Shown here piece by piece: positions 9,862 to 22,695 of a stretch of DNA of 24,050 bases (within the stretch, counting starts at the first letter, position 1; every line of letters begins with the position of its first letter). The notes beneath the pieces were generated by a model. The model did no database searches. It was given only the letters and a program-made list of their open reading frames with translations, and was not told the DNA's origin. Source of the DNA: a virus; the IMG/VR virus record IMGVR_UViG_3300035698_001017, positions 1-24,050 of that record; one strand, given 5' to 3'. The position numbers and the translations under genes are program-made.

Positions 9862-9888
9862 TTGACATAAGTGTAAAACCGTGATACT
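9862..9888 (+). promoter_or_regulatory. Sigma70-like promoter of the HNH endonuclease gene
   Basis: A consensus TTGACA (9862-9867) is followed after 15 nt by GATACT (9883-9888). A second candidate -10, TATAGT at 9889-9894, is too far away at 21 nt. The site lies between the gp10-like start on the other strand and the HNH start, so it would let the HNH gene be expressed independently of, and against, the late operon. Confidence 0.5.
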
Positions 9889-9913
9889 TATAGTTAAAAA
9901 AGGAGAAAAGATT

Positions 9914-10480
9914 ATGTTGCCCAAAAATGGTATTTTTAAAAGTAAGAAGTGTGTTTTTTGTGGTAAAGTTTTTCCACCGGTGAATGCAAGCTCCAATTAC
10001 TGCTCTCTCCCTTGCGCCTTTTGGCACAGGGTTGATACCGGCCAACCAGACGACTGCTGGAACTGGATAGGAGCAAAAAGCAAAAAAGGTGGGTACGGGA
10101 TACTTAACCGTTTTGGTGTTGCTTATAAATGCCACCGGTTGAGCTGGGAGATACACGGGGGCGACCTTCCTACCAAAAATGATGAGTCTTACCACGGTAT
10201 GTGTGTCCTTCACAAATGCGACAATCCTTCTTGCGTAAATCCTGACCATTTGTTTCTCGGGACTCACTCCGACAATATGAAAGATATGGTCGGTAAGTTC
10301 AGACGCCGTAGTTACGCAGGAGCGATGAACCCTTCTGCCGTACTTAACTGGGCGAAGGTTTTTAAAATAAGAACAGCCCTTTCTAAAAATGCTACCACAA
10401 CAAGCCTCGCCAAACAATATGCTGTGAGCAAGTCCACTATCCGTAGAATCAAGAATTTTGAGTCTTGGAAGTTCATGTGA
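9914..10480 (+). CDS. Free-standing HNH homing endonuclease
   Basis: 188 residues from the ATG at 9914 (MLPKNGIF), chosen because AGGAG lies 8 nt upstream; a GTG at 9881 is in frame but lacks this. The N-terminus has a zinc-finger-like CVFCG...CSLPC arrangement. The HNH core follows: GGYGIL, KCHRLSWEIHGG, then VLHKCDNPSCVNPDHLFLGT and DNMKDMVG, matching the HNH_3 pattern with its metal-binding Cys residues and the catalytic His in VLHKC. The C-terminal TTSLAKQYAVSKSTIRRIKN looks like a helix-turn-helix DNA-binding segment. It is the only plus-strand gene inside the late operon, inserted between two conserved tail genes, which is typical of a mobile homing endonuclease. Confidence 0.85.
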   Translation: MLPKNGIFKSKKCVFCGKVFPPVNASSNYCSLPCAFWHRVDTGQPDDCWNWIGAKSKKGGYGILNRFGVAYKCHRLSWEIHGGDLPTKNDESYHGMCVLHKCDNPSCVNPDHLFLGTHSDNMKDMVGKFRRRSYAGAMNPSAVLNWAKVFKIRTALSKNATTTSLAKQYAVSKSTIRRIKNFESWKFM

Positions 10481-13009: not shown

Positions 13010-14765
13010 TCAGGCTCCAGCCGATCCATACAAACCACGAGGGTCTGTAGCACCAACAGAGTATCTGTCATAAGACTTGGATTTCGCGTTGTCTGTATCG
13101 AAATCATTGTCTTGTTTCAGTCTGTAACTGTCTCTCTGATACATTATCATACCACGGGGCGCGTTAGTTCTTACGAACCATGCGTCCGAATCAGTAAAAT
13201 AATGGTTAATTTTGATACCTTCAGGCATCGCGTTAGTCATTTTCAGTACATTAACTGCGTTGTTCGCTGTGTCATTCTGAAGTGTAGATTTGAGAATCCT
13301 GTTAGCCTCGAACCAATCGCTCGGATGGACATGCAAACTCTTAGCCATCAAAGAAATTTTAAGCCCTTTGTCATTAGTCGCCTGCATAATCTGAGTACAG
13401 ATATCCTCAAGAGAGGACTCATTCAGATCGGAAGGTGTCGCAAGTTCATTACTCCACGTTCCTGCTGAAGACGGATGGTCTGTTGCAAGAAGCTCTTTAC
13501 CATCACCGAAAGTATAATCGCTATTGAACGCACGATTATAAACATTAGCTCCAACAATCTCTTTAGTCTGGCGTTGTGAAAACGCATTTGACATCGCTCT
13601 ACGCTTACCAACCACTTCGTATAGGTTGTCTCTGATTTCTTCATAAGTACAAATGAACCCAAGCGCATAAGCTACATGCGTGTAACGAGAAGTGTACCCC
13701 TGAGTCTCTGTGTCATAAGACACACTTGAACCCTGCGCTTTTATTGGCGCAAGACCAAAGCCAGTTACCTGGACATCTTCCTCGTAGTTACGAGTAGACC
13801 CTTCAACCTCGAACAGGTCTTTATACTCTTCTTTATGCTCATCGTACGATCGGCCCCACCCTTTTGTGTTCGAAGCAAGTCGTTAGTTTGCCCCCGTCGT
13901 TACCCGACTGCTGCATGTTACCATGCAGAACAGACTATATCTTTATCCTGTAAGAGCTACAGGATACGCACCTTTTCCACTCACTTGAGTGTACTCCCTT
14001 TCGGGATAGTCGTTGAAGGTTGCAGATATTGAAAAGCCTCCGTGACTCTTTTGCCTACCAGATAGAATATGGAACATGGCGTAATGTTTCAAACCATGAA
14101 TCTCGCAAAAAGCTCTAAGACCCGTAATGCGCTTTGAGCTACCATCAGGAAAAGTAATAACGTATGTTTTAGAATTAACATTATCCTCACCTTTAGGTAC
14201 AAACTCTTTAGGGTCCTTCTTATTCGGATTTAATTTCCTTGATTTAATTATCTTATCATACCAAGTTATCTTACGCCCGAGCATAGCCTTTCTTATTTTT
14301 TCTATCGTAGCTTCTGAAATAGCGTCACCACCAACAGTCATATTATAACCTTTATTAAATGAGTTATACTTTTTTATAAAAAACTTTTCTAAATCATTCA
14401 GCTGCTCTCTATCAAACACATTGCAGAGTGCTTCGAATTTAAAGTTTTCTATTCCGTATTTTCTCATGGCCAAATATATCTTGTGGTCTCTCTTACCGAG
14501 GTTGAACCTACAAATGTGTTCCATTTTACGTTGGCGCAGCCCTTGTGTAGTCTGTCCTATGTAGACTTTGCCATTAGTAATATTGGTAATTCTATATATT
14601 AGTAAGTTCTTCAATACTGCCTTCCCTGCTGATTGTCCATTAACTGGAGTTCCCAGCAATTAAATGCGTTCTCAATATACATTACTATATATTGGCCCTG
14701 TGTGTCAAGGCTTTAACTCCCGGCCATAGTGCTTTTGGATGATTACTTGTTGTTATAACGCCCAT
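13010..14765 (-). CDS. Major capsid protein (Mu gpT-like), interrupted by a group I intron; join of 14765-14708 and 13860-13010
   Basis: Exon 1 (58 nt) encodes MGVITTSNHPKALWPGVKA plus the first base of codon 20. Exon 2 (851 nt) resumes the frame as WWGRSYDEHKEEYKDLF and continues through NYEEDVQVTGFGLAPIKAQG, SYDTETQGYTSRYTHVAYAL, LHVHPSDWFEANRIL and AWFVRTNAPRGMIMYQRDSY to a TGA. The joined product is 302 residues, close to the usual size of Mu gpT-like capsid proteins. The exon-1 frame read on without splicing hits TAG within 8 codons, so splicing is needed. AGGAG lies 7-8 nt before the ATG, downstream of the decoration-like gene. Exon 2 alone would look like an N-terminally truncated protein starting at an internal GTG. 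Confidence 0.9.
13861..14707 (-). ncRNA. Group I self-splicing intron in the major capsid gene
   Basis: 847 nt. The 5' exon ends in U and the intron ends in G (position 13861), as group I chemistry requires. P1: exon GCCU pairs with intron GGGC (14698-14695) with the U-G wobble at the splice site. P4: UUGCUG (14659-14654) pairs with CAGCAG (14631-14626). P3: AGAACG (14672-14667) pairs with UGUUCU (13932-13927). P7: AGUC (13936-13933) pairs with GACU (13881-13878). P8: a GCAUG/CAUGC stem closed by GUAA (13926-13912). GGGAAC...GACAAUCAGC resembles the core of T4 td-type introns (group IA). The endonuclease ORF lies in a peripheral loop after P4-P6. Splice sites were set by restoring the MCP frame and conserved residues. 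Confidence 0.88.
13943..14614 (-). CDS. Intron-encoded GIY-YIG homing endonuclease
   Basis: 223 residues if started at the TTG at 14614, which has GGGAAGG 5 nt upstream; the longer reading back to 14659 would run through the intron P4 core and is less likely. NLLIYRITN and KVYIGQT form the GIY-YIG strands, followed by LRQRKMEH with the catalytic-type Arg. DLEKFFIKKYNSFNKGYNMT carries the conserved Glu. A NUMOD3-like ISEATIEKIRKAMLGRK and a C-terminal HTH-like segment (ITGLRAFCEIHGLKHYAM) give DNA binding. The final codons and stop fold into a 9-bp intron hairpin (13944-13966), so the ORF and RNA structure overlap. It would cleave intronless MCP alleles and drive intron homing; this is known for the family and inferred here. 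Confidence 0.88.
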   Translation of the reverse strand: MKNLLIYRITNITNGKVYIGQTTQGLRQRKMEHICRFNLGKRDHKIYLAMRKYGIENFKFEALCNVFDREQLNDLEKFFIKKYNSFNKGYNMTVGGDAISEATIEKIRKAMLGRKITWYDKIIKSRKLNPNKKDPKEFVPKGEDNVNSKTYVITFPDGSSKRITGLRAFCEIHGLKHYAMFHILSGRQKSHGGFSISATFNDYPEREYTQVSGKGAYPVALTG

Positions 14766-16581: not shown

Positions 16582-16892
16582 TACTTACTCCTTATAATTG
16601 CTGCTATGTCTTTGTCGTTCATTAACTGGTATTTCTCTCCGTCTGTGCCTGTTACCTGATACCCTGCCGCTCTGCCTACATACACATGGTCGCCTATTAC
16701 TGGTTTGTCCCCATCCCAATCGTTGAAACAGTTTCCACCTGTTGCTATTAGTACCGCTTCTACCTGAACCATCTGTTGTTTTTCTACGAGCGTCGACGGT
16801 ATCCACAATCCACCTGTGGTCTTATCTGCTATCTTATCTAACTCCACGAGGATTTTATACTCAACTGGCTGTAACCCGCTGTTATTCTTCAT
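16581..16892 (-). CDS. GroES-like co-chaperonin (Cpn10)
   Basis: 103 residues matching the Cpn10 fold along its length. ILVELDKIADKTTGGLWIP covers the first strand and the mobile loop, where TGGLWIP stands in for the GGIVL-type tripeptide that docks into GroEL. VQVEAVLIATGG, VIGDHVYVGRAAGYQV and YQLMNDKDIAAII are the later barrel strands. No groEL gene is visible in the window, so it would cap the host chaperonin, probably to fold the capsid protein, as T4 gp31 does. It is placed between portal-overlapping and scaffold genes, consistent with head morphogenesis, and overlaps the preceding gene by 11 nt. Confidence 0.8.
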   Translation of the reverse strand: MKNNSGLQPVEYKILVELDKIADKTTGGLWIPSTLVEKQQMVQVEAVLIATGGNCFNDWDGDKPVIGDHVYVGRAAGYQVTGTDGEKYQLMNDKDIAAIIRSK

Positions 16893-21969: not shown

Positions 21970-21980
21970 GTCGTGTCAAG

Positions 21981-22473
21981 TACCCTTAACCAATTAAATT
22001 GGTAAAGTTAAGGGTATTTACCGAGACCAGCACCAGGAGCGGTTATACACAATTCACTGACCGCTACGAATTTGGTTAAGGGTATTGGTCAAGGGTATCT
22101 TGTAAAGCCCCTATTCATCATACTCTTACTACCCTCTATTTCTTCTTTTAACCCAATACCCTTAACTTCTCAGTCGAAACTCTGTAGTTTCAGTAAGTGC
22201 CGTAGCGGTCAAGCGGTCACCTGTAGCGGCGCGCACCGTGCGCACAGCTACCGACTTGTTTGTTAAGGGTATTGGGGTAAAATCGTGGAGACGCAAGCCC
22301 GGCGCACCATACGTCAATACCCTTAACAAAACGGAGTAAATCTGCAAAACGGCGGAGACCCGCGCCCACAGCACCGATAGGGTTAACCCAAAAAATACCC
22401 TTAACCAACTCGTAAAAACAGGCTAAATCACGTAAACCCGCATGGTTAATACCCTCTTGGAAATACCCTTAAC
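21981..22473. repeat. Iteron-like family TACCCTTAAC, eight exact copies
   Basis: Exact copies are at 21981-21990, 22157-22166, 22318-22327, 22396-22405 and 22464-22473 (plus), and at 22007-22016, 22075-22084 and 22262-22271 (minus). Seven of the eight extend to AATACCCTTAAC. A one-mismatch copy lies at 22088-22097 on the minus strand. The first two copies face each other and enclose CCAATT/AATTGG, so they could form a hairpin. Spacing is irregular (16 to 95 nt), unlike CRISPR. Confidence 0.85.
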
Positions 22474-22695
22474 CAAGAACCGCGCCAGGCGCACCGATAC
22501 GACGTAGCGGACGACCATTTGACCGCTACGCGTAGCCGCTACGACCTACAGGTGTCCGCTCGACCGCTTGTAGCGGCTACGATTAACCCAAACTGTAGCG
22601 GCGGGTTAAAATCCACGACCGCTTGACCGCTTGTAGCCGCTACAGGTGACCGCTTGACCGCTACGACCTCTACAGGTGACCGCTACGCGTAGCGG
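22061..22695. repeat. CCGCTAC / GTAGCGG repeat family, twelve copies
   Basis: CCGCTAC is at 22061, 22523, 22536, 22637, 22658 and 22680. Its complement GTAGCGG is at 22202, 22223, 22504, 22570, 22595 and 22689. They are linked by related units ACCGCTTG and CTACAGGTG (22546, 22640, 22670, and inverted at 22218). The densest part is 22501-22695, where neighbouring copies form many possible stems. An outlying copy is at 21366 after the small terminase. Confidence 0.8.
22201..22665. repeat. 30-bp perfect inverted repeat
   Basis: Positions 22201-22230 are the exact reverse complement of 22636-22665 (left arm begins CGTAGCGGTCAAGCGGTC, right arm ends GACCGCTTGACCGCTACG). The arms are 405 nt apart and enclose five of the TACCCTTAAC motifs. 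The match stops at both flanks, so it is a defined unit and not a long duplication. Confidence 0.85.

Follow-up and report, generated by a model that had tools for sequence, protein, structure and literature searches.

An uncultured tailed phage carries a probable IA2-like group I intron encoding a GIY-YIG endonuclease in its major capsid gene

The window analyzed here, which is the whole of IMG/VR record IMGVR_UViG_3300035698_001017 (24,050 bases), carries on its minus strand a major capsid protein (MCP) gene whose reading frame is lost after codon 19 (position 14709) and regained at 13860. Exon 1 (14708-14765) starts with an ATG at 14765, contains codons 1-19 and the first nucleotide of codon 20, and has U14708 as its 3' end; exon 2 (13010-13860) encodes the remainder of a 302-aa gpT-like/Phage_capsid_4 MCP with the stop at 13010; and the 847 nt between them (13861-14707, also minus strand) have the features of a group I intron of IA2-like subgroup with G13861 as the final nucleotide. 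The frame break after codon 19 and the 847-nt gap had been proposed in an initial annotation of this DNA, and both were confirmed to the base. Without splicing, the exon 1 sequence MGVITTSNHPKALWPGVKA leads to a UAG stop at 14687-14685. Joining U14708 to G13860 gives 302 aa reading ...ALWPGVKA-WWGRSYDEH..., with GTTAAAGCCT followed by GGTGGGGCC as the predicted spliced junction. When ORFs were called without splicing, the sole long MCP ORF was one of 237 aa with a GTG start (13010-13723), which is the truncation from an internal GTG that the initial annotation had foreseen.

The MCP gene is flanked by a 198-aa gene on one side and a tail-fibre-like gene on the other, with portal and GroES genes upstream, and the order portal, GroES, two hypothetical genes, 198-aa gene, MCP is the same in L001-L003, which are isolate or complete-genome relatives. 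The GroES co-chaperonin gene (16584-16892, minus strand) lies within the head gene cluster, and its position is kept in L001, L002 and L003. In one of these relatives (MW202785, L001:1-1304) the large terminase is annotated as two CDSs about 130 nt apart with a small insertion, and this split may represent a further intron or mobile insertion. No near-identical phages were present in INPHARED, and megablast of the whole window matched only 108 bases of the intron core and found no isolate relative.

The joined MCP scored above the curated cut-offs of PF25209 and PF10124 (Phage_capsid_4, Mu-like gpT), matched PHROG major-head families including phrog_371, gave a single tblastn alignment covering 87% or more of the protein in each of 21 phage records, and had relatives at 66 IMG/VR loci, several of which end at a contig edge. 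Its closest relatives, L006-L010 (76-79% identity), have no intron, and MCP residues 1-302 align with them end to end and gap-free at the junction, with TGG TGG at joined codon 20 and codon 21 and the W kept at the joined codon. The 5' exon ending in U, the G preceding the 3' exon and the restored ALWPGVKA-WWGRSYDEH, all claimed in the initial annotation, thus agree with intronless MCPs, and the residues around the junction, which homologues might have lacked, are carried by L006-L010, including the W. An alternative junction, GCCUU/GUGG, lying one nucleotide later on both sides with an AAAAGG end, is also in frame; it was rejected because it gives A-L-W-G, and A-L-W is absent from homologues, which show A-W-W or A-F-F.

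The pairings expected of a group I intron are present in the insert (all coordinates on the minus strand). P1 (14695-14711) pairs exon GCCU with the internal guide sequence (IGS) GGGC, which places the wobble pair U14708.G at the 5' splice site; it is extended by intron UG/CA and is followed by the P2 hairpin (14673-14694), which holds the UAG at 14687-14685 that stops exon-1 ribosomes. The 5' strand of P3 (ACGCA, 14665-14669) has its partner UGCGU at 13966-13970, and P4/P5 (14626-14659) consists of UUGCUG/CAGCAG around UCC/GGA, P3 and P4/P5 being supported by both fold and covariation. The fold also pairs the 5' strand of P6 (GAAGG, 14620-14624) with CCUUC at 14015-14019. Downstream of this, the 5' strand of P7 (GACUAU, 14006-14011) forms a pseudoknot with P3 through its partner AUAGUC at 13933-13938 (Rfam match and fold), and the P7.1 and P7.2 hairpins (13978-14005), a hallmark of subgroup IA, were found by fold and covariation. 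The P8 hairpin AUCCUGUA/UACAGGAU (13945-13965; fold), the P9 hairpin (13911-13928; Rfam match, fold and covariation) and the P9.1 and P9.2 hairpins (13874-13908; fold), which lie upstream of the 3' splice site, complete the structure. The initial annotation had drawn P1, P3, P4, P7 and P8, each of which was recovered together with P2, P5, P6, P7.1, P7.2, P9, P9.1 and P9.2. P10 is weak, with at most three pairs as judged by eye. We presume the subgroup to be IA2 on the basis of P7.1/P7.2 between P7 and P3, plus P9.1/P9.2.

When the core was folded with the ORF deleted (intron nt 1-89 plus 685-847), the minimum free energy structure contained P1-P6, P7.1, P7.2, P8, P9, P9.1 and P9.2, a textbook subgroup IA fold, at -89.1 kcal/mol compared with -61.2 +/- 4.3 for shuffles (z = -6.4); the pseudoknotted P7 (14011-14006 with 13938-13933) was added to this fold manually. 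Rfam group I models, named in the initial annotation as a check, gave no match in the intron at the curated gathering score, whereas with relaxed filters RF00028 matched 14127-13911, in the 3' half, with 44.9 bits against a gathering score of 50 (E 5.4e-10), and a separate weak match covered the 5' half. The miss at the gathering score arises because an endonuclease ORF of about 600 nt splits the core and the model is unable to bridge it; the gathering score is a database threshold and no biological defining feature. Group I identity, as initially claimed, is therefore supported by the core, the U.G pair in P1, the terminal G, covariation and the intronless alleles.

Most of the intron is taken up by a GIY-YIG homing endonuclease ORF that had been absent from the initial annotation (13943-14614, minus strand, 223 aa), with a TTG start at 14614, which was set by alignment with the ATG starts of L049 and L072, and a TAA at 13945-13943 in J8/7. 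Profile searches matched it to PF01541 (E 7.6e-10), phrog_314 (E 1.8e-28) and, above the cut-off, TIGR01453 (group I intron endonuclease). A PDB search gave a weak match to the I-TevI catalytic domain (1ln0/1mk0), and in the alignment the ORF matched the I-TevI motifs at the Arg, Glu and Asn that serve in catalysis, residues whose roles have been described (PMC2988022). Endonuclease relatives occur in the capsid introns of L049 (47-56%), L072 (49%) and L074 (37%). The Shine-Dalgarno-like AGGGAAGG of the ORF overlaps P4/P6 and shares bases with the 5' strand of P6, and the last 25 or so codons span P6-P8. A second homing endonuclease candidate, apparently free-standing, is an HNH_3 gene at 9881-10477 (plus strand, opposite to the structural genes; PF13392 E 1e-11, phrog_1872) located between two seemingly complete genes.

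Introns were found elsewhere in the same MCP family, at the identical site and at three others. L049 (IMGVR_UViG_3300037628_000056), an independent contig whose MCP is 64% identical, carries a diverged intron inserted at exactly the same nucleotide; L072 and L073 have one eight nucleotides upstream, in codon 17; and in L074 the intron follows codon 10. In four further members of this gpT-like family (L179:60-520, L188:5400-5800, L232:3180-3560 and L236:1540-1900) the intron is short, has no ORF and lies near codon 90, and most of the P1-P9 core is discernible in each. The L049 intron sits in the same MCP family and position as that of the window and is homologous to it, as is its GIY-YIG ORF (47-56% identity), but its endonuclease frame is broken, its P2 is absent or much reduced and its IGS is recoded, following the synonymous exon codon (GCC.U/GGGC in the window, GCG.U/GCGC in L049). 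The frameshift in the L049 ORF (L049:2976-3606) indicates either an endonuclease in decay or a sequencing indel. At the gathering score, Rfam found tRNAs alone in 16 related loci, so the blind spot extends to L049, L072 and L074.

Covariation was scored at 38 pairs in an alignment of eight intron cores from this capsid family. At these pairs 95.4% of the cells were paired, falling to 32-41% when the partners were slid by 1-3 columns, and two-sided compensatory changes occurred at 14 of the 38 pairs compared with 8.4 +/- 1.5 in shuffles (0/500 shuffles as high). The covarying helices were P3, P4, P5, P7.1, P7.2 and P9; P3 in particular had five different sequences among the eight introns with pairing kept. 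P7 is the same in all eight sequences, and therefore its support is conservation only.

Comparable introns have been described in other phages. Splicing of the MCP intron of LittleE, a Cluster J mycobacteriophage, was proven by RT-PCR and N-terminal sequencing (PMC3706429), and like the window intron it is of group I type, similar in length (819 bp), located in an MCP gene and equipped with a homing-endonuclease gene, with intronless close relatives, a 5' exon terminal U and an intron terminal G (PMC3706429). It differs in that its ORF resembles LAGLIDADG enzymes and is encoded on the opposite strand, its MCP is HK97 gp5-like, its insertion site is another one and no subgroup was resolved for it, compared with IA2-like here. 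Since the splicing of LittleE has been published, the window intron belongs to a known sort, with a capsid family and site that differ from those of LittleE. Lactococcal phage Tuc2009, an unrelated phage, is cited in PMC3706429 as having a capsid gene that likewise contains a group I intron. More than half of the group I introns of viruses belong to subgroup IA2 (PMC11835236), and the T4 td/I-TevI and nrdD/I-TevII introns share with the window intron the IA2 type, P7.1/P7.2 and a GIY-YIG endonuclease (PMC2988022); however, they reside in thymidylate synthase or ribonucleotide reductase genes, whereas the host gene here is capsid and the endonuclease ORF reaches through P7-P8 to J8/7. By BLASTN, the 3' core of the window intron was 74.5% identical to an intron in the thymidylate synthase gene of Pseudomonas phage PspYZU05.

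The sequence shows the insert and its exact ends, covariation in the core, alleles that lack the intron and an intact GIY-YIG domain, and we conclude, with a probability of about 0.96, that a mobile IA2-like group I intron with a GIY-YIG endonuclease interrupts codon 20 of the MCP gene of an uncultured tailed phage. The intron might instead be degenerate and dead for splicing, in which case the capsid gene would be broken or translation from the internal GTG would give a 237-aa protein. The frameshifted L049 endonuclease points to decay within this lineage, but in the window all core helices are intact, with P3, P4, P5, P7.1, P7.2 and P9 covarying, both exons are open, and the junction residues agree with those of intronless homologues; moreover, loss of the first 65 MCP residues in an otherwise intact head cluster is expected to be lethal, and we regard this reading as very unlikely. 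The matches to Rfam, which fall mostly in the 3' half, would also suit a free-standing GIY-YIG gene that inserted into and split the MCP gene and is accompanied by group I-like sequence on its 3' side alone. This is very improbable, as P1, P2, the 5' strand of P3, P4, P5 and the 5' strand of P6 lie upstream of the ORF, their 3' partners are present, and the 5' helices covary.

Two other explanations concern the insert as a whole. A metagenome assembly chimera is conceivable for a window that is an IMG/VR contig and not an isolate, but the gene order around the MCP is that of L001-L003 and the independent contigs L049, L072, L073 and L074 bear introns in the same gene, which leaves very little probability to an artefact. 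An intein, translational bypass or frameshift in place of RNA splicing would likewise place an insert with a homing-endonuclease domain in a coding gene; however, each of the three reading frames of the insert contains stops, one of them 8 codons beyond the end of exon 1, profile searches revealed no intein domain, and a full, covarying group I core is present, so that such a mechanism is extremely improbable.

For the mobile group I intron, we propose the following mechanism. By the chemistry of the group I family, a guanosine bound at P7 would attack after U14708, the freed 3' OH of exon 1 would attack after G13861, and the exons would be joined to yield the 302-aa capsid protein. The early UAG would keep exon-1 ribosomes from the core. 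The folded intron would hide the endonuclease start, and a ribosome translating the ORF would unfold the core; with the Shine-Dalgarno-like sequence in P6 and the last 25 or so codons in P6-P8, folding and splicing would therefore compete with endonuclease translation. Judging from reference titles in PMC2988022, such a conflict between intron folding and ORF translation is known in T4 introns. During co-infection, capsid alleles lacking the intron would be cleaved by the endonuclease, and their repair would copy the intron in. The N-terminal motif KALWPGVxxWWG is well conserved in the MCP, and would therefore make a good homing target that is hard for the phage to change. It is fair to infer that capsid output would depend on splicing efficiency. 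The intron also conceals the MCP from standard gene callers, with the first 65 residues lost, while Rfam at curated thresholds is silent.

The initial annotation had implied that a capsid host is exceptional, which is at odds with the published precedents (PMC3706429) and with two DNA-pattern scans of IMG/VR for the intron core, in which downstream frames were classed by Pfam and PHROGs and capsid was the commonest host in both samples. Among the matches listed in the first sample, capsid genes made up about 25 of the 79 exon-2 readings (SU10_MCP 14, Phage_capsid_4 7, P22 coat 2, other capsid 2), compared with 10 for DNA_pol_A. In the second sample, of which a few readings are endonuclease ORFs and not exons, capsid genes made up about 44 of 93 among the matches listed (SU10_MCP 22, Mu-like gpT 11, Phage_capsid_4 9, Phage_capsid_3 3, P22 coat 3, Phage_capsid_2 3, Gp10A 2), compared with NRDD 4 and DNA polymerases 5; the Mu-like gpT 11 are probably largely the same proteins as the Phage_capsid_4 9, and the capsid totals assume no other overlap among the listed families. 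In both samples, the matches listed thus included more capsid genes than DNA polymerase, terminase or nucleotide-metabolism genes. Because these are listed matches, the samples share about 10 loci and IMG/VR contigs are picked partly by hallmark genes such as MCP, enrichment in capsid genes is not proven; exon 1 was verified in some loci only, and when SU10-type capsid introns were screened for exon 1 with a regular expression, the outcome was clear for L251 alone.

Capsid introns are nevertheless not rare. We further suggest, tentatively and at somewhat worse than even odds, that IA2 introns of uncultured phages reside preferentially in MCP genes, across several unrelated capsid families and at several positions within a gene, and that splicing routinely gates capsid production. 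No report of capsid-gene predominance among intron hosts was found in the open-access full-text literature. If capsid introns are that common in environmental phages, many metagenomic MCPs would be wrongly annotated as truncated or split, and phage capsid supply would often depend on ribozyme folding. Loci such as L158, L159, L186, L222, L240, L187 and L212 exemplify group I introns with the same core type in capsid genes, which belong to several unrelated families. Elsewhere in the window, the region 21974-22692 has clustered direct and inverted repeats with recurring GTTAAGGGTATTGG motifs and no convincing gene, and includes a perfect 30-nt inverted repeat whose arms (22201-22230 and 22636-22665) lie 405 nt apart.
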